Source: Corallium rubrum (taxonomy: Eukaryota; Cnidaria; Anthozoa; Scleralcyonacea; Coralliidae). Taken from it: 64,000 nt of DNA. The notes under the pieces were generated by a model. It was not told where the DNA came from. It was given only the letters and a program-made list of their open reading frames with translations, and did not search any database. This document shows, piece after piece, positions 9,006 to 25,724 of this stretch. How positions within the stretch are numbered: the first letter of the stretch is position 1; each line of letters starts with the position of its first letter. Made by a program: the position numbers and the translations under genes. The stretch covers positions 220,649 to 284,648 of the forward strand of contig CAXIUP010000033.1 in assembly GCA_964035015.1 (NCBI GenBank), in the 5' to 3' direction.

Positions 9006-9290
9006 GGTGATAATGTTAAGCAATTTTATGAAAAAAGGCCAAAAATTATATAAATAATTATATACTACTGTATACAGTAGAAAATCTAAATATGAGCTAA
9101 ACACTTAGGGCTCAAAATAACGTTTCATGTTACACCGGTCATGGTGACTGGTCAGTTCCAATTGTGACCGGTCAAAGGTGATTTTTGAGCGGTCAAATTT
9201 CACGACCCCCCTCCCCCCCAAAAAACCAAACCCAACAACCAACAAACCAAAAACAACAAACAAACAAACAAACCCCCAACAAAACAAACA

Positions 9291-9321
<31 letters not shown>

Positions 9322-9360
9322 TACAACAACAAAACAAACAAAAAAACCCAAACGCAACAC

Positions 9361-11896
9361 AACACGACACGACACGCCACGCCACGACACGACACGCCAC
9401 GCCACGCCACGCCACGCCACGCCACGCCACGCCACGCCACGCCACGCCACGCCACGCCACGCCACGCCACGCCACGCCACGCCACGCCACGCCACAACAC
9501 AACACAACACAACACAACACAACACAACACAACACAACACAACACAACACAACACAACACAACACAACACAACACAACACAACACAACACAACACAACAC
9601 AACACAACACAACACAACACAACACAACACAACACAACACAACACAACACAACACACCACACCACAACACACCACAACACACCACAACACACCACAACAC
9701 ACCACACCACACCACACCACACCACACCACACCACACCACACCACAACACACCACACACACAACACACCACAACACACCACAACACACCACAACACACCA
9801 CAACACACCACAACACACCACAACACACCACAACACACCACAACACACCACAACACACCACAACACACCACAACACACCACAACACACCACAACACAACA
9901 CAACACAACACAACACAACACAACACAACACAACACAACACAACACAACACAACACAACACAACACAACACAACACAACACAACACAACACAACACAACA
10001 CAACACAACACAACACAACACAACACAACACAACACAACACAACACAACACAACACAACACAACACAACACAACACAACACAACACAACACAACACAACA
10101 CAACACAACACAACACAACACAACACAACACAACACAACACAACACAACACAACACAACACAACACAACACAACACAACACAACACAACACAACACAACA
10201 CAACACAACACAACACAACACAACACAACACAACACAACACAACACAACACAACACAACACAACACAACACAACACAACACAACACAACACAACACAACA
10301 CAACACAACACAACACAACACAACACAACACAACACAACACAACACAACACAACACAACACAACACAACACAACACAACACAACACAACACAACACAACA
10401 CAACACAACACAACACAACACAACACAACACAACACAACACAACACAACACAACACAACACAACACAACACAACACAACACAACACAACACAACACAACA
10501 CAACACAACACAACACAACACAACACAACACAACACAACACAACACAACACAACACAACACAACACAACACAACACAACACAACACAACACAACACAACA
10601 CAACACAACACAACACAACACAACACAACACAACACAACACAACACAACACAACACAACACAACACAACACAACACAACACAACACAACACAACACAACA
10701 CAACACAACACAACACAACACAACACAACACAACACAACACAACACAACACAACACAACACAACACAACACAACACAACACAACACAACACAACACAACA
10801 CAACACAACACAACACAACACAACACAACACAACACAACACAACACAACACAACACAACACAACACAACACAACACAACACAACACAACACAACACAACA
10901 CAACACAACACAACACAACACAACACAACACAACACAACACAACACAACACAACACAACACAACACAACACAACACAACACAACACAACACAACACAACA
11001 CAACACAACACAACACAACACAACACAACACAACACAACACAACACAACACAACACAACACAACACAACACAACACAACACAACACAACACAACACAACA
11101 CAACACAACACAACACAACACAACACAACACAACACAACACAACACAACACAACACAACACAACACAACACAACACAACACAACACAACACAACACAACA
11201 CAACACAACACAACACAACACAACACAACACAACACAACACAACACAACACAACACAACACAACACAACACAACACAACACAACACAACACAACACAACA
11301 CAACACAACACAACACAACACAACACAACACAACACAACACAACACAACACAACACAACACAACACAACACAACACAACACAACACAACACAACACAACA
11401 CAACACAACACAACACAACACAACACAACACAACACAACACAACACAACACAACACAACACAACACAACACAACACAACACAACACAACACAACACAACA
11501 CAACACAACACAACACAACACAACACAACACAACACAACACAACACAACACAACACAACACAACACAACACAACACAACACAACACAACACAACACAACA
11601 CAACACAACACAACACAACACAACACAACACAACACAACACAACACAACACAACACAACACAACACAACACAACACAACACAACACAACACAACACAACA
11701 CAACACAACACAACACAACACAACACAACACAACACAACACAACACAACACAACACAACACAACACAACACAACACAACACAACACAACACAACACAACA
11801 CAACACAACACAACACAACACAACACAACACAACACAACACAACACAACACAACACAACACAACACAACACAACACAACACAACACAACACAACAA
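9361..11896. repeat. Pentanucleotide array (AACAC)n with variant blocks
   Basis: A period-5 satellite in ordered variant blocks. GACAC and GCCAC units run to about 9491. AACAC units follow to about 9655. A mosaic of ACCAC and AACAC units runs to about 9893. Then about 2 kb is made of pure AACAC units with no visible substitution. From 9492 the plus strand contains only A and C. Because the unit holds no stop codon, all frames stay open on both strands for about 900 codons; these are not genes. The perfect block may reflect very recent expansion or consensus smoothing in the assembly. Confidence 0.95.
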
Positions 11897-11923
11897 AAAA
11901 GGTAAAAGTGTTCTCTCTATATG

Positions 11924-12115: not shown

Positions 12116-12348
12116 TTAAAACACTCATTAATAATTCATGAAGAAAACACAAAAGAAATCATGACCGTGAAGGAGGTTGTATATCTGATGATACAAACCA
12201 CACGTGGTTGTGTCACATATAATATACAACCACTAGTGGTTGTATATCAGGTCACTATCTCCGCTCTAAAACATTGAAATTGAGCTTTTTCTGAATTAAT
12301 ATGAACAAATATTACTCATATTAACATCAAAGACTCAGCGTGTTTTAA
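12116..12348. mobile_element. MITE with TTAA flanks abutting the large element
   Basis: The ends read TTAA|AACAC at 12116 and GTGTT|TTAA at 12348, so a TTAA duplication and a 5-bp inverted end are both visible. The interior holds an imperfect hairpin around ACCACTAGTGGT and the string TTGAGCTTTTTCTG. A diverged relative lies at about 44430-44640. TTAA targeting is typical of piggyBac-like elements. The right TTAA is also the first four bases of the large inverted repeat that follows. Confidence 0.62.
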
Positions 12349-14316
12349 GAGGCTATCTCCCTAAAAACCGACCAACGGTTTTTGAAGGCAAAAATGAATT
12401 TCGTTTGTTTTTCGCCCATTATTTACCTTTACCTCACTTATTATTAAACCGCTATGAAAATTGCCACTTGATAATTTGTTCTTCATTTTTGACACATTTT
12501 TTATGCTTCGGCGGGAACGGCTAAGATTCGAGCGGAAATGAGAACTGACACTACCTCGAAATGATCTTGTTATTTCTCCACCAATTTAGATTTGAATTTC
12601 AAATTTTTTTCTTGCAGTGCAATATATAGACCTTGTGTTTCATCTGGGTTGAAGGTACAAGCTCTTTGTTTTGTTTTGTTTTGTTTTGTTTTGTATCAGA
12701 TATGGTCTCTTTCTTTTGACTTACTTTTTAAATTCGCTTACGGCACCTGATTAGTCAAGTTTTATAAATTAAGATTTCTCTGAAGTGGCACCTGGCCTGG
12801 AAATGTCGTGTGTATTTCGTCGTAATATAATACCGTAAGTTTAGTAATCTTTGAAAACACTTGTCGGCAAACGTATTTTGTAAGCGCACGAACCGCTCAA
12901 AGTTAAGCTATTGTTTCACTTTGTTTACATTGTCAGAACCGGAAATGCCTTACGCTTTGCAGATAAGGCCGTTTTCGTTTCTCAATATTACATAAAAACA
13001 ACTTCTTTTTATTTGAACTTATCCCTAGAAAGCGAACGGGGCATAATTTATACGTCTATTCGGTTTTTAGGGTAAAAATGATTAAATATTCTATAGCCGA
13101 TTCTTCATATATACTCATATACAATAGGAGCAGACATGTCGCAGCCTCCTAAGTGACACTTAAATAATTATAATTCATGAGCAACTGAAAGTTTATCATT
13201 TTCTCTGTTTATTTCGGTGTACTGTTCATATTTTTATAGCATGAAAAGGTGGCAGCATCTTATACTCTGGAAGAATCGATTAAACGTCTTAAGAATTTTT
13301 TAGACTTCATGAACAAATTAAATCGCTTTTAAGGCCTGGCTCATACGTTCATTCGAATTTAATTCGTTTCATACGTCGCTGTATCGTCGCATTTAATTAA
13401 TTAATTGATTGAGTTAAATTCGTCTGAATTAAATGCGACGATAAAGCGACGTATGAAACGAATTAAATTCGACTGAAGAGTTGAATTCGTCTGAGACGTT
13501 GTATCCGTCACGGTGAGAAGGATACAACGTCTGAAATGCGTGTTCGTTTCAGACGTCGCTGTACCGTCGCATCGAATTAAATGCATAAATTATGATAACA
13601 TATTTTTTGAGGCAGTGATCAGATTTTTGTTCACTTCACATGCGTATTGGACGTTTTTGGCGCGATCTAGCGGGGTTTTTCTTGCTCGTCACTGAATTAA
13701 ATTCGTCGCATGAAACAAATTCGAGTTTACGTCGACTTTAACTATGAATTAAATTCGTCTGAATTAAATGCGACGTATGAACCAGGCCTTAAAAGCGATT
13801 TAATTTGTTCGTGAAGTCTAAAAAATTCTTAAGACGTTTAATCGATTCTTCCAGAGTATAAGATGCTGCCACCTTTTCATGCTATAAAAATATGAACAGT
13901 ACACTATGGTGGCCCAGCGTTACCATAGCGATATACCTGTACTATTTACAATAATATGTAATAAAAATATATAAAATTAAAATAAATAAAAAAGAAGTAA
14001 AATTTAAACCAAGAACAAAAATAAATTAAGAAAAAAACAAAAAAAAAATCGAACAAAAAAACAAATTTAAAAATTTATGAAAAAACTGAAAAAATAATTA
14101 AATGCATAATAAAAAAACTAAAACATAAAAAACAAAATAAAAAACCGATTAAGAAAACAACTTTGAAAATTTCAAAACATTTGATTTTCAATTTGATTTT
14201 GATTTTGCTATGATAACGATGGGCCATCGAAATATGTCGATATCAAATTGAAAAACAATTTCGAATGTTGTGATGGCCCAGCGTTTCCATAGCCCAGGAT
14301 ATCGTTGGTCAGCGGC
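12345..14316 (+). repeat. Left long terminal inverted repeat
   Basis: It matches the reverse complement of 24340-25620 along its full length, with few differences (for example five versus three TTTTG units near 12670). The match is broken by a MITE at 13219-13902. Its inner third ends with an A-rich tract and two ATGG-GGCCCAGCGTT boxes in inverted arrangement. No coding capacity. Confidence 0.88.
13219..13902. mobile_element. MITE with ~118-bp inverted repeats inside the left TIR
   Basis: GTAC stands at both edges, and the ends read TGTTCATATTTTTATAGC in inverted orientation. The arms match for about 118 bases with one or two changes, up to AAGGCCTGG. The interior holds a second nested palindromic repeat rich in GAATTAAATTCG and CGACGTATG. 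The right copy of the host repeat lacks it, with only a two-base difference at the junction, so this is an insertion that postdates the repeat pair. TA or GTAC could be the target duplication. Confidence 0.85.
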
Positions 14317-14394
14317 GGTCTCTCGGGACAAAAATCACAAAATCATTCCGTAAACTCTCTGTGGGACTGTGACCATTTGTCGAGACCTTAGAAG

Positions 14395-14413
14395 AAATAT
14401 AAACTATAAAAAG
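14395..14413 (+). promoter_or_regulatory. Possible TATA region of the integrase-like gene
   Basis: ATATAAACTATAAAAAG lies about 55-65 bases before the start codon at 14464, just inside the left terminal repeat. The position fits a core promoter with a short leader, but the sequence is AT-rich, so the call is weak. Confidence 0.3.
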
Positions 14414-14463
14414 AGAATTTGTGCCAAGAGTTGACAGGTATACATTCATAGAAAGCTGTAACT

Positions 14464-17147
14464 ATGAATAACAGAATTCGAAATTCAGATTGGGAGACTG
14501 ACGAAGATTTAAAATCGGATATTCAGCGGTACGTATTGCAAAACCTGAGTCGCAAAGAACTTTTAGACTTTGTGCAACGAGATTATCCACAATACGTGTG
14601 GAGTTTAACAACGCTAAGTCGAAGGATGGCTCATTTTAATATTAAATATATCGACTATGATATCGATGTGGAAGCAGTTGAGACAGCTGTCAGGGAGGAA
14701 ACTGAAGGGCCAGGACAATTGCTTGGATATAGGTCATTGCACAAAAAGTTACGTGAACAGCATAATTTAGCAGTACCACGTGGTTTAGTTTACGATGCGA
14801 TGACTCTGGTTGACCCAGAAGGTCTTGAACGTCGAAGTAATGTAGGGAGAAAGAAACGTCACCGTGGACCAACTGGAACATTTACATCATTGGTAAGATA
14901 TTTTACATTCAAGTGCATTCGAAACTAACACCATACCCACAACCTTAACATTTGATTGTCTTGCAAATTAATTTAGGGACCCAACCACACTCACTCTGGC
15001 GACGGACATGACAAGCTAATGGATTTCATGAACTACACTTTCCCTTTGGCAGTATATGGACTTCAAGATGCATTCAGTGGTTATATTTTATATTTAAAGC
15101 TTTGGACTTCTAATTCTGACCCTAAACTAATAGGGCGTTGGTATTTGGAGCACCTTTACCAAACAAGAGGTGTGGACTACTACTATAGTCGATATAAACT
15201 AATGCAATCCCACCATTGGCCCATCATGACTTACCAGGGAATGTATACTTCAAATGCTGTTCCCCCAGTTTAAAAACGAGGGAGTTTGGGCAGATGTCAA
15301 AATAATGGGATGATGCCTCCAATGAGTGGAGTAATTTTCAACTACTCTTTAAAAATCATCATCTTTAAAATTTAATACCTGTAGTGGTAAATTTCAATGA
15401 GAACTGCATCAAGTTAATAAGGGACAGACCATTGAAAAGTAATGGAAGGGGTGGGGGAAAACAAAAAAAAATCATACAAGGGAAATAGAAAGAAAAAGTT
15501 TGTGCAAGGAGGAAAGCAAATTAAAGTAAAAACCTTTAAAATTCTGCAAAAAAATTCCTTCACAAGCTGAAGGCTGAAAACGATTCATGCAAGCTGAACC
15601 CCCCTCCCCCCATCACTTTAATGGATAACAGCAGGTGTGCACTTTTGTTTAAAAATATTGTGAATTATGGAATGTTGCAAATAAGTTGTACGTTTTTTTG
15701 TTTCAGTGATCGGTGAGAATCTTCGATTAGATAAGGGGACCGAGACTGGCCAAATGGCTACAATTCATGCGTGTTTGAGACAAACACATGGAGATGGACA
15801 AGCAAATCAGGATGCTGTTGACACAGTGCAATATGGTCCTTCCACAAGCAACAAGGTAATGATAAGAATATTAATGCAATTCATTTGGCTGAGCCTGAGA
15901 GGTTGTTTGTGGCTTCGATAATGCAGATTGAAAGGTGGTGGCGTGAGCTGCATCATCGTTTTGAAAAATTCTTCAAAAGGCAACTGAGGATGCTATTAGA
16001 AAGAGGATATTATGATCCAAATAACCAATCTGACAGGTGCAGTGTTTATTGAATACACAACATTTCTAAAAATTTAAAAAAGTAACATAACTTCTATTTG
16101 TTAAATTATTCATTTTTAACAGGGATCTACTTGCATTTATTTTTATTCCTGTTATCCAAAAGGAAATGAACATATTCAGGGAAACTATATGGAACTCTCA
16201 CAGGGTCAGAAGTCAGAAAGAGGCACAAATGCCTAAAGGAATCCCTAATCATTTGTATTCCTTTCCAGAAAAATATGGGGCTGAGGAATGTGGTATGGAA
16301 AAAGTACAAAATTTTACTTACCTCATTAATTAATGTACATGGGCATATCAAGTCATCTTATTAGTGTTAGTCTTAGAGACATTAATTCCAGCTACAGTGT
16401 GGTTAAAATTACCTCAACATATTATTCTTAAAACTGCATTATTTTAAATTTAATTGCCCATACAGGCTTCAGAAGAGGCCTGCCCTCCCCTCTGGACAGC
16501 TATATGTAAAAGTTTCCCTGACATTTTGACACTTCTGTTATACGAAACTTTCAGCTGCTGTGTACAACTTGGTTTAGATATATCATTGATTCCCCTTTTA
16601 CCCCCATTTAGAATAGACTGAAAGTATATTAATTTACAAGCATTTAATTTTATGCGTTGTACATATACCTCAGTGACAATATTTGTGGGCTGAACAGGCT
16701 GAAACTGGCAGTAAACACCCATCCCTCACTTCACTGTTGTGAATCGAAAACAAAATTAAGAAAATTGGATGATATGGTCTCCCTGAAGATTATTCTATAA
16801 ATATCTCTACATTGAAAGGGGGAATGAGGGTTTATATGTTAATATGCATGGCTTTATCTCAAAATTGTTGTTCATTTTAAGTTTCCTTGTCCCACTGCTC
16901 AATGTCATTGAGTGTTGCTTAATCCTGTAAAATGCTTTTTGACAAAAACATATTATTTTCAGGATTACCTGTCACTAAAGAGGCGCTAGATGAGGTGGCA
17001 CAATTATCAAGTGTCATGACTGTTGGAGAGGACTTTTTATCTCCCAATGTAAGAGCTGAGTGTGAACGAATTATTCCAGACATAGATGGGGTGAAACCCA
17101 TGGATGCTGCTGATGCCTATCTGTTCCTCAAAGCCCATTATCAATAA
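14464..17147 (+). CDS. Integrase-like DDE protein, six exons, 411 aa
   Basis: Six exons join with consistent phase and GT-AG borders: 14464-14892, 14977-15169, 15707-15855, 15927-16036, 16123-16292 and 16963-17147. The total is 1236 bases, with no internal stop. Exon 1 encodes a helix-rich N-terminal part that probably binds DNA (LSRKELLDFVQRDYPQY, then basic GRKKRHRG). The catalytic core starts with GDGHDKLM (Asp152/Asp155), then LRLDKGTETG (Asp216) and IERWWRELH (Glu259). That gives the DDE layout of retroviral-integrase-like nucleases. The downstream ETIWNSHR and IPNHLYSFP motifs belong to a family I recall from fish and cnidarian genomes under the label integrase core domain. It lies 148 bases inside the left terminal repeat, so it is the natural candidate transposase of the 13-kb element. 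Function is not demonstrated. Confidence 0.82.
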
Positions 17148-17748
17148 TTTTAATGTGCCAGTGCCAATATACACTAATTGCATTTAAGGATAGAAACTGT
17201 GGATAAAAGCATTGCCTAATGAGTAATGGTTGCACAAACTTAATGGCAGTATAGTGGCAAGTTTGAAAAGTATCAATTAGCTCATAACCAAATAATGACA
17301 CTAGTTAACTCATTAAACAGCAAGGCATCTTAATGGCCTTACTTCTGTAATTTTGCATTGTCTAATACCAGACGATTTTACTGACCTTGGGAAAATTGTT
17401 GGACTTTTGTGAGCTGAACATGATTGGTTGAGCTAATTGAATACTTGATATCATAGCAAGAACCACTGAAAATGTAATTAGTTATTCTCATGCAAACAAA
17501 GCATCACATTCGATTAACATTAGCAGTAAAATAGTGTTTAGTGATAAAAACAACTATATAAATAAAAGTGTGAACAATAATTGCTAAAGCTTACTTTTCA
17601 ATCAGCAAATATGATTCCAAATTCATGAATATAACCAAGAACCGAAATAAACAAAACTGTATTTATAAAGTGCTAAAAGTGCCAGTTTATGTCATTCACT
17701 GTCTGCATAGTTTTTGTTTCAATAGTTTGTGGATACTGTTCTTGAACT
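17148..17748. other. Spacer between convergent genes
   Basis: It separates the 3' ends of the integrase-like and alpha-kinase genes. It contains CCAGACGATTTTACT near 17370, close to the core of the satellite at 50.4-64 kb. No gene was recognised. Confidence 0.5.
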
Positions 17749-18205
17749 CTATTCACCTGACAAGACTGGCAAACCCATCAGTTTGCAGAACTTGTTACAC
17801 GTATGGTCATGTATGAACTTCTCCATTCCCACAGTAGTGCAGTTACCACAACAAAAATACATTTCATTCGTTTCAATATCTAAAACATTATCTGTGGCTA
17901 TTTCTGGATCGTACAATGTGAAATCTGAGCCCTGAATATCAAGAAGCATAAGTTTCTTCTCAGAGGAGTGATAGGTATAGTGCACCAAGCACTGTGCCTT
18001 GGCAAATATCTCATTGCACTGATCGCTTGCTCCCTCTGGTGGTTTTATACACTGGCCATCGTTGTTGACAATCTTGGCAAATGTGCCCGGCACATACTCT
18101 TCAATCGTTGCAGGCTCACCATTATATGAGGTATAGAAACAGCGGTCATACTTAAAACACTTACCAAAACTGGATGGGGCTTTTGATTGAAATTTCTTTG
18201 TGAGG

Positions 18206-21200
18206 TGCCTTGCCAGGCACGTAGCCAGGAATTTGAAAGGGGGGGAGCCGTCAAGTGACAACACATTTCTAGGGGGTGCGTGGGCACGCTTCCCCGGAAA
18301 ATTTTTTAATTCTGTATCCATTTTGAGGCCATTTTTGAGCAGAACACAGAGGACTTAAATTACATTTACATTACCAGTTTGTCCCACCATTTTTAATAAA
18401 TATTTCTGTCCAAATGAGATTAGTCATTGTGGACGCAGTTTTCTTGAAAACAAAAACTTCGTCTAATTGTTAAATAGTGAATCCTTAGTCCTTACAACCC
18501 TAACACGAACATGGATCTACTACTAAACTGCACACTCTTCACTCACTCGAACATCGTTCACCAACCATGTCCATGGAGACGTTTCGTGAGATGCAAGGGG
18601 TCTGAAGCCATCCTTCCGTCCAGGGCATGCATTTTAAGATTGTACCACAGATATCATAACTCATACAGAGGGATATAAAGCCTGTCTTCTTTTTGTTTTA
18701 TTATATCAGAAAAGAACAGGGAAGTACTTATAAATTCCAAGACTAGTTTGAGTGTGGGTTTGATGCAGGTTAGATGAATCATGAACATCATAAAAAGGCA
18801 AATGGTTATAATACAAAAATATCACTCAAGTCATTCAGACAAGCTACTGTACTGTTGTTGAAATAGTCAACGATTTCCTTAATACGTCATTAGATTAATA
18901 ATAAACGTCGATTCTTTGAGCTTGCAAAACGCTCCATCACCCGGTCAACATCAATTGGTTCAGTGTTGTAAATGTACATCATAGCCAAGCCATTCAAGCG
19001 TGCTTCACATGTTCGATTGCGCAGGTATGTTTTGAGTAGTCGTAGCGATGAGAAACTGCGCTCAACGGTTGCTGTTGAGATTGGCAAGATGCTGGCGATC
19101 GATAGAAGGGCACGGATGCTCGGAAAGACACTGGCATCGCAATACTGTAACGCGGCTATGTGATCGGAGGGTGACTTGTCCGAAAATTCTCTCTTCCATT
19201 TGATAACCCACATTCGGTATTGTGCGAAGGCATTCATGCCATGGACATCACCAGGCTGAACATTATTTGCACTAAGGACTGAAGAATAGTTCCTCCAAAG
19301 TTGCATGAATTGCTCCTCCATTACACCATCCTTGACGCAACTGGCAGGTAGTAGGGTGTCAAACAATCCGACAAACTTTGTTTTTTCATTGAAACGAAAT
19401 CGAAGCTGCTGAAGAACTGTATCCAAAAAGGGGATATACACCGTCACACGAAAATAATCAAATTCGTTAGTAGAATCGACGTCTGGGTTAGCTCTGTGCA
19501 CCGACCTTTTGCAAACTCTTGGCGGCTCAATCTTTATCTCCAGACATGCTATGGTGTCCAGAATCCACTTCGTTATTGTTGAAAAACGATGCTCTGCGTT
19601 TTTCCGATCTTCGTCGAGGACAGTTATAATGTCCTGGATCTGGCTCATGGCTTCCTTTAAGCAAGTGTTTTTCTGTTGGAGACTCTTGGATAGAAGATCA
19701 ACATTATTAGTCACTGCCACACAGCTGAACAAAGTGACAATAAAAGTGCTGCTTGTCACTGACTTGATGAGCGCCGTCGCCTTCGATTTTGCATCAGTAT
19801 CCTTCCATCGACTGACGGCCATTAGTGCCCTGACAATTGCGACGTAATTTGATACAAAATTTTCAAGGGCAGTAACTCTTTCAACCCACCTTGTCTCGCA
19901 CAAGGACTGGAGGTTACCCGTACCACAATGTCCACTGGATAAGCTAAGAGCACATCTTAACGTAACTCTTTTCTTGTTACTTGTGGACATAAACGTTGTT
20001 ATTGTTTTGACAGTGCTTATCATGTCGCGGACAGCGGGGAGCTTTGACGCATGCACAAGTGTTAGATTAAGGGCATGGGCAGAACAGTGATAATACTCCG
20101 CATAATCGCAATGCTTCTTTACAACAGAGCATGTTCCCACAGAGCTTGAACTCATGACACTTGCTCCATCATAACTTTGTGCAACAGCTGCTTTCAGAGA
20201 CAAGCCACACTTTTCAAGTTCTGTCACAATTGCCTTTCCAATGACCTCTCCAGTGAGTTTTGGCTCTTCAATTTCAAACGCCTTTTGATTTTCTTCTTCA
20301 CATCTCTTAAGGTACTCCTCCATTGTCTTCGGAATGCTTTCTTCGCTTACATGTACTTCCTGGCTCGAATGGTCATACGCCTGGTCTAAAACGTCTATAA
20401 AAGAAACAAAATCTTCGCAAATTGCTTTCTTATCTTGATCGTAGTAGCGCAAGCAAAGTGAAAGCTGTTCGGTGGAAGAGATGTCTGTTGTCTCGTCTGC
20501 CATAATCACATAAAAATCAGACTTCTTCACACGGGATATAACTTTATCTCGTAACTCGTTTCCAATACACTCGATTACTTGATTTTGAATGTCACCAGAT
20601 GTGTAACATGCATTTCGTGGGGCTGTTTTAATGTGATCTTCTAAATTTGTATCACCAGCTTGTACACGAAACCTAAGAAGACGCTTGAAATTCCCCTCAC
20701 CCATTTGTAGCTTCGCTAGATCGATATCGCCGCTGTCAGCATTACCTCGAAGAGCAATGTTATTCTGTCCACAAAAAATAACTGTCTCGACAACAGGTCT
20801 AAGAATTTTACGATTTTTCTCGCAGGCCTTTTGGTGTTGGGTATTAATCAACTTGTACACGTCAGTTTTCTCCTTTTGGTTTGTTAAAAATGCTTGGCAC
20901 CGAACTGCAGCACACTTGTGGTATTCGTTGTTAAGATGCCTATTCAGATCTCCTTTTTCTCCAGTCAGTCTGTCGTAGCGATTTAGTGGTTTTGTGACCA
21001 ACTTTCCAAGACGAGCCTCTGTGCGGTAATGAACATTTTCTGTTTCAGAAAGTACGCAATTCTTACAAAATAGTCCGCCCGCTGTCTCACTATAAGCAAA
21101 ATCTGGGAACAGATCAATATGACTTTGTTGTAGACGCCTCTTGTACTGATTTTTGCCTTGATTTTTCAAAGAAAACGGCCATTTGAATCCTGGCGATGCC

Positions 21201-22443
21201 TGCCATTTGTTTTCAAGCATGTGACTTTTCTCCAGATCAGTTGCCTTTCTTGAAATGAAATGGCCAATATCGTAATCAGATGTTAGGCAGGAGTTGGGAT
21301 AAGTCGGCCCTTTTGTTGTATTTGGTATTGAACTTGAATTTTTTTCACGCATATCCTCACACTGCATTTCAATTTCATGATCCGGGACCGTAGCGATTTG
21401 TACGTGAGGAAGGGTGGACGTTGATGGGTTGCAAGTGGCAGTTGAAATGGAAGATATGTTATTTGTCTCTTCCGATTCAATGCTAGTGTCGATATTTTGT
21501 GACGTGGATGGTTTAGAACTGGCTCGAGATGCGAAATTTAGTGTTGTTTGTTTTAATTTAGCGATTTTCTTCGGTGGGGGGCCTGGGGTCACGTCAGTAA
21601 TGTCTTTTAGATGTCGCTGGTTACACGATTTCTCTAGTAGAGATTCCTTTGATCTTTCATTATCACAAGCAAATTGAGAATCTGATCATATAAGATAATA
21701 AGAAACCAAATTTTAAATTAAATTTAATAAAACTGTTACCTAAATTATGGAAAATATATCGCGGGTCCGCAAAACACCCATAGCGGGCATCGAAATATAG
21801 AAAAAAAGTATATACTTAACACTAAATATTATTTTGCATGCAATACATTTATACAGATTAAAGAATGACGATTGGTTAATTGATGCATCATAGCCCAGAT
21901 CACATACCGGTAAGATTTTTGCTGCAATTTTTGCATATGGTGCTCTGTCCATAACCCTCAGCTTCGTCATCTTCAGAAGAAACTCCGCAGATTATATGCA
22001 CATACTGAAAGCATTTCTTGCATCTATGTGCACTTCCAACTTCATTCCCACAGACAGGACAAATAGTTTCCATTGGATACTTACTCTAATTCAATCAACA
22101 TACTGAAAGGATATGAAAGATAATGAAGGTGAAGGTCCAATATTCGTTTGAAATCAGTCATCAGAAAATGGGACATCGAACATTGTTCGAAGATTCGAAG
22201 TTCGAACATCCCACCGATCGCAGGCTCGCAGCGGTCAACTTGGGAATACTTTGTGTAATGGCGAGCAATGAGTATTTGGAAAGGTGGTGTTACAAGCACA
22301 ATATTTCTTCACATTTATGAACTATGAGTTGGTGAATTGTAAAGATTAGAGTTAATCATTGAAAAAAATCTTACTTACATGTCTTCAAAGGGGGGGAGCC
22401 GCGGCTCCCACGGCTCCCCCCTGGCTACGTCCCTGTGCCTTGC
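18206..22443 (-). mobile_element. hAT transposon with 8-bp target duplication
   Basis: The element spans 18214-22435 (4222 bp), flanked on both sides by TGCCTTGC (18206-18213 and 22436-22443). Terminal inverted repeats read CAGGCACGTAGCCAGG on the left and, inverted on the right, CAGGGACGTAGCCAGG. Subterminal GGGGGGAGCCG boxes are repeated near both ends. Removing the element and one duplication restores the alpha-kinase reading frame exactly across the site. The 8-bp duplication and CAGG ends fit the hAT superfamily. Confidence 0.95.
18890..22073 (-). CDS. hAT transposase (ZMYM/DUF4371-like), two exons, 985 aa
   Basis: Exon 1 (22073-21908) encodes a small zinc finger, CPVCGNEV...CKKC...HIICG...CKNC. 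A GTATGT donor joins it in phase to exon 2 (21681-18890, AG acceptor), giving 986 codons including the stop. After a low-complexity segment come a TTF-type finger region (SETAGGLFCKNC, then HLNNEYHK), the DUF4371/RNase H core with MADETTD (about residue 449) and SYDGASVM (about 560), the HCSAHALNL motif and the C-terminal dimerisation block TATVERSFSSLRLLK (about 924). All three acidic catalytic positions appear present. With the terminal repeats and target duplication intact, this looks like an autonomous, possibly recently active copy. An internal Met in exon 2 (21592) would give a 900-aa form without the first finger. Confidence 0.9.
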
Positions 22444-24339
22444 CACAGCATGCATTTGCACCTGTTTGCGACAGTGGTCTTCAACTGATGTGCTTGCAGC
22501 CCCTTCAATTGTGCTTTTAGCCCTTGCATTATAGGTTTTCACAACCCATTCTGTTGGTTGGTGGTTTTAGCACTTTTCTTGCCAGTTGCATGGAAAGCAT
22601 CCCTGAAGGCACCAGAAGCAAATTTCTTGGTGTCGACCAGAAGTTCTTCCTCCATGACTTCCGTCCACTCTCTTGATTTAATGTCAAATGTTTCAAAAGT
22701 AATGGTTACTTTGTTTTTCGGTTGTGGTTTTGCTAGTTTACCAGCTTTTAGTAAAACATCTATTGATACTGAAGCTGGATAAGCTGTTTCTATAGTCTTA
22801 CTTTTGGTTGGGCTGCATGTGGCAGTTGCACTTTTACAATTTCTAGAGGTGTGTGAAGTTGATTTGCTGTCATCAAAATAATCTTCAAATCGGTCTTCAG
22901 ACGATGGCTGGTCAACATCCTGCATCACCACAAATCTTACCAGGTAAACCTGTTTAAGAAATCTGATTATTGTACTTCTAATACTTTTTTCCACAATAAT
23001 ATCATATATATTATAATACATGTACTATAAATCCATACAAGAATAAAGATGATGAAGAATTTCAGACGTTTCCTCTCTTTTGGAACTATGAAAAAATGGG
23101 ATGATCCTAGCCACCTATTTTCAGAGGAAATCACGGGTGTGACATAATAATCTGTGTATTCAAACAACAGTTTTTGAGAAACAGAACTTGTTTATTTATA
23201 TTACTCATGGTCAAATTGAACTGGTCCTAAAGCCTGTGCTACGCCCCTGAGAAATGCTACATATACACTGTAAACAATTTTCAGACTGTAACTTGTCCCC
23301 CAAATCTCTAAATTTCATTGCTTTTAATACCTAATTGGTCACTTGTGTGCCCTTGACTGCGTCTTCATGTGCTCTTGAAAACTGTCTTGCCCCCCTGTCG
23401 ATAGATTTGTAGCTTTTGCGCCCTAGAGATCTTGTTGAAAACTGCCCAACTATGCAGTATGGGGTTAAATCGAGTCTGAAAATTGTTTATAGGAAGCACT
23501 TCGAAGGGGCACTAAACATTTCCTGAAAAATCTTGGCCTGCCAGGGCAGAGGTAGCTGACTGGAAATCTGGTAGTAAATATATAAAAATGTATCACAACT
23601 GCCCGCAGCCCGCCTGAGATGTCGTATGTGGGATACAATCCACTTGGGGGGGGGGGGGGGGGTATGAGAAAAAACTATTTTACATGAGAAAACTATTCAA
23701 TTTAAACCATTCTATTTGAGATGTTAAGACTCACAAAATTTTAATTTTACCTTATCTTTCCGGTGTGGAATTTGTCCGATGTTTGTGCATGAAGGTCCTT
23801 TGTTTGTAACTAACACATCGCACGTGCTCGCTGGTAAATTGAAGTGGGCTGCGCACGCTTTCTTTAAGTTTACCAACGAAAGTTCTTCGTACTCAAAGTT
23901 AACAAACTCCCTAGGTTGCACAGGTCTAAATGTCTGCTTAGTGTCTGGCTCGGACGCTAGCCGTTGCACTATAATCTCATGAGGAGCACTCGATCCGGAC
24001 TTCTTCTTTCGTCCTGACATGGCATCATTACGAGTTCTCTTTCCACCCATTTTTGCTTGAAGATCATTCCAAACTGCTTGCCTTATTTTATTATTTTATT
24101 TTATTTTATTTAACTTTACCTTGACTAAATAAATAAATACAAGGATAGGAACACCGCAACAGCTGAGGCCAATTACTGCGGGTCCTTTTCATAGTTCTTT
24201 ATTTAATCAACAAAAAACCTCTCGAAGAACGGCGACAGATAGATCACGGAATGAAAATCGATAAAATAAATGCGTAAAACTTTCTTGTATTTGCATTATT
24301 TGCATTGCATTTGCAGTAATTCCATGTGACAAGTGGGAG

Positions 24340-25620
24340 GCCGCTGACCAACGATATCCTGGGCTATGGAAACGCTGGGCCATCACAACATTCGAAATTG
24401 TTTTTCAATTTGATATCGACATATTTCGATGGCCCATCGTTATCATAGCAAAATCAAAATCAAATTGAAAATCAAATGTTTTGAAATTTTCAAAGTTGTT
24501 TTCTTAATCGGTTTTTTATTTTGTTTTTTATGTTTTAGTTTTTTTATTATGCATTTAATTATTTTTTCAGTTTTTTCATAAATTTTTAAATTTGTTTTTT
24601 TGTTCGATTTTTTTTTTGTTTTTTTCTTAATTTATTTTTGTTCTTGGTTTAAATTTTACTTCTTTTTTATTTATTTTAATTTTATATATTTTTATTACAT
24701 ATTATTGTAAATAGTACAGGTATATCGCTATGGTAACGCTGGGCCACCATAGTACACCGAAATAAACAGAGAAAATGATAAACTTTCAGTTGCTCATGAA
24801 TTATAATTATTTAATTGTCACTTAGGAGGCTGCGACATGTCTGCTCCTATTGTATATGAGTATATATGAAGAATCGGCTATAGAATATTTAATCATTTTT
24901 ACCCTAAAAACCGAATAGACGTATAAATTATGCCCCGTTCGCTTTCTAGGGATAAGTTCAAATAAAAAGAAGTTGTTTTTATGTAATAATTGAGAAACGA
25001 GAACGGCCTTATCTGCAAAGCGTAAGGCATTTCCGGTTCTGACAATGTAAACAAAGTGAAACAATAGCTTAACTTTGAGCGGTTCGTGCGCTTACAAAAT
25101 ACGTTTGCCGACAAGTGTTTTTAAAGATTACTAAACTTACGGTATTATATTACGACGAAATACACACGACATTTCCAGGCTAGGTGCCACTTCAGAGAAA
25201 TCTTAATTTATAAAACTTGACTAATCAGGTGCCGTAAGCGAATTTAAAAAGTAAGTCAAAAGAAAGAGACCATATCTGATACAAAACAAAACAAAACAAA
25301 GAGCTTGTATCCTTCAACCCAGATGAAATACAAGGTCTATATATTGCACTGCAAGAAAAAATTTGAAATTCAAATCTAAATTGGTGGAGAAATAACAAGA
25401 TCATTTCGAGGTATTGTCAGCTCTCATTTCCGCTCGAATCTTAGCCGTTCCAGCCGAAGCATAAAAAATGTGTCAAAAATGAAGAACAAGTTATCAAGTG
25501 GCACTTTTTATAGCGGTTTAATAGTAAGTGAGGTAAAGGTAAATAATGGGCGAAAAACAAAGGAAATTCATTTTTGCCTTCAAAAACCGTTGGTCGGTTT
25601 TTAGGGAGATAGCCTCTTAA
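24340..25620 (-). repeat. Right long terminal inverted repeat
   Basis: The uninterrupted 1281-bp partner of the left repeat, in opposite orientation. Its inner end (GCCGCTGACC at 24340) leads into 289 bases of leader before the alpha-kinase start. Its outer end GGGAGATAGCCTCTTAA stops at 25620, beyond which the two flanks share no sequence. It serves as the empty-site reference for the MITE in the left copy. Confidence 0.9.
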
Positions 25621-25628
25621 GCTGTTTA

Positions 25629-25724
25629 CAACATTCACGTCCGTGTTGTATCGAATATATAATCACTCGCCTTCGGCTCGTGATTGTATATTCGATACAA
25701 CACGGCCGCTCATGTTGTAAACAT

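Follow-up and report, generated by a model that had tools for sequence, protein, structure and literature searches.

A probable IS3EU transposon with convergent transposase and alpha-kinase genes, nested among other mobile elements in Corallium rubrum

The window analyzed here is a stretch of 64,000 nucleotides from Corallium rubrum (assembly GCA_964035015.1, contig CAXIUP010000033.1, positions 220,649 to 284,648 of the forward strand). A 13.3-kb block at positions 12345 to 25620 of the window comprises three nested mobile elements: an outer element flanked by TTAA, an inner element of IS3EU type, and a hAT element located in the kinase gene of the inner one. The inner element (13905 to 24751) is very probably an IS3EU cut-and-paste transposon that carries convergent genes for an integrase-like transposase and an alpha-kinase, and that inserted into the older TTAA-flanked element before being hit by the hAT element. 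An earlier, sequence-only reading had described the whole block as one transposon with 1.28-kb inverted ends. The transposon and its alpha-kinase are indeed there, but that reading merged nested elements into one. The ends of the inner and outer elements are arranged as follows.

13905 to 14316, forward strand: left terminal inverted repeat (TIR) of the IS3EU element, 412 bp, starting TATGGTGGCCC; from the inverted pair and end reading, with a second genomic copy on C82
24340 to 24751, reverse strand: right TIR of the IS3EU element, with final bases GGGCCACCATA; from the inverted pair and end reading
13899 to 13904, no strand: left copy of the target duplication GTACAC, from end reading
24752 to 24757, no strand: right copy of the target duplication GTACAC, from end reading
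12345 to 13904, no strand: left part of the outer element, with its left TIR (about 12345 to 13348), a spacer and an inner stub of its right TIR (about 13773 to 13904); from inverted arms, genomic matches and TTAA ends
24752 to 25620, no strand: rest of the right TIR of the outer element, its first bases being the IS3EU target duplication; from inverted arms, genomic matches and TTAA ends

The inverted arms that had been proposed at 12345 to 14316 and 24340 to 25620 are real, but they combine the TIRs of two elements and do not form a single repeat. Four inverted pairs make up the arms: 13903 to 14316 with 24340 to 24753 (414 nucleotides, 100% identity), 12986 to 13223 with 24751 to 24988 (100%), 12675 to 12986 with 24989 to 25300 (99%), and 12345 to 12609 with 25356 to 25620 (97%). 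Relative to the right arm, the left arm has about 680 extra bases (about 13224 to 13902), which in part repeat the end of the outer element once more in inverted orientation (13217 to 13348 with 13773 to 13904). The supposed 1.28-kb transposon end is thus a 412-bp IS3EU TIR abutting the TIR of an older, unrelated TTAA-flanked element. Within the 474-Mb genome, the inner and outer parts of the arms occur independently of each other.

The inner element measures 10,847 bp, and the later hAT insertion accounts for 4,222 bp of this plus an 8-bp duplication. Its two 412-bp TIRs are identical, and its termini are TATGG..CCATA. The inner 414 bp are found at 97 to 100% identity in four places only (40 of 68 candidates scored), namely the window pair and a pair on C82, which together correspond to two elements. 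The C82 copy spans 7.0 kb, is about 98% identical to the window copy, has the same TATGG..CCATA termini, and is flanked on both sides by GAGGAG. No match to the outer element lies beside it among the outer-end matches scored. The outer part behaves differently: the right-arm bases from about 412 to 1281 (window 24751 to 25620) have at least 44 further genomic matches that lack the inner part. This count is a lower bound, with 40 of 261 candidates scored. It comprises 42 matches over the full outer stretch and one over bases 725 to 1281, at 97 to 99% identity, and one over bases 412 to 465 (54 bases).

These observations make it scarcely conceivable that the block is one transposon extending from 12345 to 25620 with 1.28-kb TIRs. 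The two TIR pairs do abut at the right, and the distances from the inner repeat ends to the gene starts had been given correctly (the ATG codons of transposase and kinase lie 148 and 290 bases inside the repeats). However, the outer part recurs without the inner part, C82 carries a complete inner element with no outer part, and GTACAC is duplicated precisely around the inner element. Moreover, a search for this site in the window and 12 loci gave 23 unbroken hits, which represent 19 distinct arms of outer elements; one of them is the left arm in the window itself. Because the arms of outer elements contain GTACAC once and unbroken, it follows that the inner element inserted at the right-hand end of the outer one. 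One finding named beforehand as refuting the single element, the long repeat occurring genome-wide without either gene, does hold for the outer part: in many of its copies the arms are just 0.8 to 1 kb or so apart, which is too short for a transposase or kinase gene.

Five more families related to the inner element were read at both ends, and their TIRs align over 341, 326, 250, 255, and 243 bp. Four of these families have TAYGG termini, and four have exact 6-bp target duplications (CACGTG, CACCTC, GTCGAG, and CACTTG). With the window and C82 copies included, the fixed target duplication that had been named among the checks is 6 bp long and exact in six of seven elements. In one element AAATTT was considered as a second candidate duplication and disregarded, since it is internal to the TIR. 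For the C82:1511k element, which joins two loci across 856 missing bases, neither the length nor the open reading frames (ORFs) spanning the gap were used. Weaker matches to the inner repeat (66 to 85%) are mostly partial, and some come from the termini of related elements that carry the kinase, C49 (66% over bases 2 to 412) and C90 (69% over bases 2 to 345) among them. In two families, 13 copies have differing left flanks and the closest pair is 99.9% identical over 2 kb, which indicates that these families moved recently.

All 17 distinct 6-bp flanks start with C or G, and 10 conform to CACNNN or GAGNNN, although 11 were read on the left side only. These flanks suggest a possible target preference.

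The two genes of the IS3EU element, and the hAT element within one of them, are placed as follows.

14464 to 17147, forward strand: transposase gene with six exons (14464 to 14892, 14977 to 15169, 15707 to 15855, 15927 to 16036, 16123 to 16292, and 16963 to 17147), modelled from splice signals and reading frames
17749 to 24050, reverse strand: alpha-kinase gene, inner exon borders approximate; from ORFs, domain matches and comparison with the C82 copy
18206 to 22443, no strand: hAT insertion including its duplications, the element proper (18214 to 22435, 4222 bp) lying in the alpha-kinase gene, with the 8-bp duplication TGCCTTGC on each side
18890 to 21592, reverse strand: hAT transposase ORF of 900 amino acids (DUF4371 and Dimer_Tnp_hAT); from the ORF and domain matches

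The transposase model has a coding sequence of 1236 nucleotides with no internal stop and five introns that are all GT-AG. Its 411-amino-acid product matches the Pfam integrase core PF24764 (E 5.9e-16), in agreement with the proposal of a DDE integrase-like transposase. The kinase gene lies on the opposite strand, convergent with the transposase gene. A first exon at about 23724 to 24050 encodes an N-terminal domain, and the kinase domain runs from about 22950 down to 22444 and then, past the hAT insertion, from 18205 to 17749. The assignment to the alpha-kinase class is borne out by the C82 copy, which is open over 348 codons and matches the PF02816 profile in full (positions 1 to 185, E 4.9e-30). 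In the window and C82 copies the N-terminal domain has an exon to itself, whereas the kinase of the C23 element is a single frame of 416 codons. That exactly two native genes lie inside the block is correct for this pair, but the hAT transposase ORF is a third.

The element has the features published for IS3EU transposons, and a DNA transposon with long TIRs bearing both genes, as first proposed, is what the 412-bp TIRs and the 6-bp duplication delimit. According to passages of PMC10045372, IS3EU termini are TA..TA with a usual duplication of 6 bp, and in rust fungi the termini are TAYGG..CCRTA, again with 6-bp duplications (PMC12730594). TA..TA termini, the 6-bp duplication in six of seven elements, and a transposase with PF24764 all point to IS3EU, an assignment made from published descriptions rather than reference sequences. 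Membership in another integrase-type superfamily (GingerRoot, Ginger, IS481EU, or a new one) appears improbable. PMC10045372 does treat IS3EU and GingerRoot together and gives them common TA..TA termini, 6-bp duplications, and a DDE integrase-like transposase, as found here. However, the same source reports duplications of 4 to 5 bp for Ginger1/2 and of about 4, 15, or 25 bp for IS481EU, and TAYGG..CCRTA together with an alpha-kinase agrees with the fungal IS3EU description.

That description concerns fungal IS3EU elements bearing TET genes, in all families of which, as a passage of PMC12730594 states, the TET gene lies between an oppositely oriented transposase and alpha-kinase. The element in the window shares the opposite orientation of the pair, the 6-bp duplication, and the termini given for rust families. 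In contrast to the fungal elements, the 601 bp between its transposase and kinase stop codons contain no ORF of 100 amino acids, and therefore no TET/JBP gene is present there. Because the oppositely oriented pair is published for fungal IS3EU, the element in the window adds an animal case to a kind already known. The sequence-only reading had taken the pair to be undescribed in animal transposons. Indeed no report of an animal transposon with transposase and alpha-kinase was found among the open-licence papers listed, although the pair is stated for fungi in PMC12730594, which gives it one sentence and uses the word "kinase" twice. PMC10045372 does not mention kinases (0 occurrences). The phrase "alpha kinase" in passages of poplar-rust and sea-anemone papers refers to a variable gene in a table and to the name EIF2AK3, and has no bearing. 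Kinase-carrying DNA transposons are thus hardly described in the searched literature, with one passage for this pair, in fungi. New here are the pairing across a genome, the co-divergence of the two genes, and the N-terminal domain of the kinase.

The gene pair recurs throughout the genome. A search with the transposase (150 of 507 candidates scored) gave 156 matches, of which 150 were listed and used, and a search with the kinase (all 134 candidates scored) gave 123 matches. After merging, these correspond to 128 transposase loci, among the matches listed, and 118 kinase loci. Further blocks with the same gene pair, which had been suggested as a check, are numerous: 89 of the 118 kinase loci are convergent to a listed transposase within 12 kb, and 88 of the 128 transposase loci are convergently paired with a kinase. 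Random placement gives a mean of 0.7 and a maximum of 3 convergent loci in 200 draws. Among the other kinase loci, one is divergent, three have the same direction as the transposase, and 25 have no listed transposase within 12 kb. These 25 would fit a reading in which the alpha-kinases belong to the host and IS3EU elements prefer to insert close to them. That reading has almost no probability, since TIRs and target duplications enclose the kinase wherever both ends of an element were read, copies 99.9% alike are found at different sites, and 89 of the 93 kinase loci with a transposase neighbor are convergent.

Co-divergence was measured in 25 of 26 elements that have both genes, C49 being left out because it retains only 64 transposase codons. 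Amino-acid distances of transposase and kinase are correlated (Mantel r 0.82 for the 25 elements and 0.74 for 21 non-redundant ones), and none of 10000 permutations was as high in either set. Quick trees of the two genes share 8 of 22 splits, including a deep one with 12 elements, against a random mean of 0.2 and a maximum of 3. In the kinase, codon positions 1, 2, and 3 differ on average by 0.38, 0.30, and 0.62. The ratio of nonsynonymous to synonymous divergence (dN/dS) has a median of 0.30 and a maximum of 0.40 for the kinase, in the 16 of 300 pairs with dS between 0.02 and 2, and a median of 0.11 for the transposase (four pairs).

The kinase sequence is conserved beyond this genome. Across 43 homologues chosen by the author from 120 listed kinase matches, nine positions are kept in 42 or 43 sequences; we take these to be the ATP-binding lysine, catalytic or metal-binding residues, and zinc ligands. 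The mean majority in the same homologues is 0.71 in the N-terminal domain, 0.62 in the kinase domain, and 0.31 in the linker. Two versions of the N-terminal domain gave no Pfam match, and comparison of the domain with PDB profiles gave only weak matches (E 0.34 and up). The alpha-kinase is the only domain that Pfam finds in the C82 copy and in the five homologues scanned.

Several observations weigh against the proposed reading. The kinase gene in the window has two breaks: the hAT insertion, and a change of frame near 22550, between parts of the kinase domain. In the genome, 29 of 118 kinase loci have no convergent transposase within 12 kb. A convergent kinase is missing at 40 of 128 transposase loci, which comprise 22 of a diverged class (32 to 39% identity) and 18 closer relatives. 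The seventh element read at both ends, which lies next to an AC microsatellite, lacks an exact duplication. The kinase dN/dS values rest on just the 16 pairs noted above, and two near-identical pairs below the dS filter give 0.47 and 1.45, from a handful of changes.

The broken kinase and the 40 unpaired transposase loci could also mean that the alpha-kinase is a passenger, a captured host gene of no use to the transposon, and transposons do pick up host genes. However, the same arrangement is found at 89 loci and is stated for fungi, the two genes co-diverge and have a deep split in common, and the catalytic residues and the N-terminal domain are conserved. A passenger is thus unlikely. Its retained place, orientation, and catalytic residues, and its divergence along with the transposase, suggest that the kinase is not baggage, and it appears to be an old, selected part of the IS3EU element, which goes beyond the published fungal statement.

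Within the diverged transposase class, no kinase match lies within 12 kb. Two loci (L091 and L092) encode a diverged IS3EU-like transposase in one 390-codon ORF, within a block that agrees to 99% between the two sites. At one diverged locus of 6.6 kb, no kinase was seen among ORFs of at least 100 amino acids, as judged by eye without a profile search, and the shared block overruns the locus end.

In the proposed mechanism, the transposase would bind the TIRs of the IS3EU element and cut with a stagger of 6 bp. The kinase, expressed from the opposite end, might act as a dedicated helper whose substrate is either the transposase or a host factor of chromatin or repair, and this phosphorylation might tune transposition or escape from silencing. 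The predicted kinase probably serves the element in some way. Its target is a more tentative matter: perhaps it is the transposase, or perhaps, on an equal footing, a host chromatin or repair factor. Chromatin is a plausible target because the kinase domains of TRPM6/7 are cut off, move into the nucleus, and phosphorylate histones, as a passage of PMC13143021 describes. Experiments could now ask if phosphorylation serves a transposon in controlling how it moves, or in controlling the host.

Homologues of both genes are found in other animals. For the kinase, 325 were found and 120 listed, most without a species name. Among the matches listed, those with a species name are from Saccoglossus, Actinia, Paramuricea, Desmophyllum, Dendronephthya, and Exaiptasia, and labels include TRPM6-like, vwkA-like, myosin heavy chain kinase D-like, and eEF2K. 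For the transposase, 984 were found and 120 listed, and the species named among those listed are Actinostola, Dendronephthya, and Ciona. The closest named relatives listed are mostly anthozoans. Four listed kinases and four listed transposases agree, when compared by eye, in the length of the longest contig (3650991, 969663, 171206, and 268778), and one kinase model of the 120 (P0004) starts with a transposase N-terminus; both are hints, not proof, of the pair elsewhere. In viral contigs, patterns built from one kinase matched nothing.

The kinase domains of TRPM7, MHCK-A, and eEF2K in the PDB belong to the same alpha-kinase family (phmmer E 2e-14 to 3e-13), but the kinase described here has an N-terminal domain of its own without a Pfam match. 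Because TRPM7 is the best PDB match, derivation of the TRPM6/7 kinase from a transposon was considered. It was dropped, since PMC13143021 gives an origin from ALPK2/3, based on intron positions and a tree. As stated in a passage of the same paper, some cnidarian "TRPM6-like" genes are kinase-only and misnamed. Like the homologues here, some of which bear that label, they have an alpha-kinase domain without a channel, and we infer that they are the same genes. PMC13143021 calls them wrongly annotated, and the stem "transpos" is absent from its text. Transposon genes are thus a possible explanation for kinase-only "TRPM6-like" genes of cnidarians, and mobile elements can inflate alpha-kinase counts in invertebrate genomes.

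A broader proposal, for and against which we see the balance as even, is that an entire clade of IS3EU transposons in animals is a two-component system in which a dedicated, selected alpha-kinase, with a conserved N-terminal domain of its own, regulates transposition or counters silencing by the host. Many alpha-kinase annotations in anthozoans and certain other invertebrates ("TRPM6-like," "vwkA-like," "MHCK D-like," and "eEF2K") would then be transposon genes, and the pairing would either predate the animal-fungal split or have spread horizontally.

The hAT element in the kinase gene is identified by its perfect 8-bp duplication and its hAT dimerization domain (Dimer_Tnp_hAT, E 1.6e-8). The outer element is about 2.4 kb long, with inverted ends of about 1 kb and TTAA flanks. 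Its copies are often facing pairs, three of which measure 2525, 2696, and 5661 bases end to end. TTAA is present at 14 of 14 matched outer ends (12 distinct, since two elements were fetched twice), of which only the final A is free evidence because the search pattern itself included TTA. An exact end match is absent at one of 12 loci examined (L017). One 5.7-kb copy, scanned without a profile search, has only repeat-like ORFs of at least 120 amino acids, and the element is not filed as piggyBac. At C1:96132900-96155600 (G000), two facing outer-element ends lie about 21 kb apart, compared with 2.5-kb copies elsewhere.

Outside the block, positions 9178 to 11905 contain about 2.7 kb of a CACAA-type microsatellite, in which several frames are open through composition alone. 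Just beyond the right end of the outer element, a 49-bp inverted repeat (25623 to 25723; 86% identity, 3-bp gap) is followed by a long TA tract, and it may be a small, separate hairpin element.

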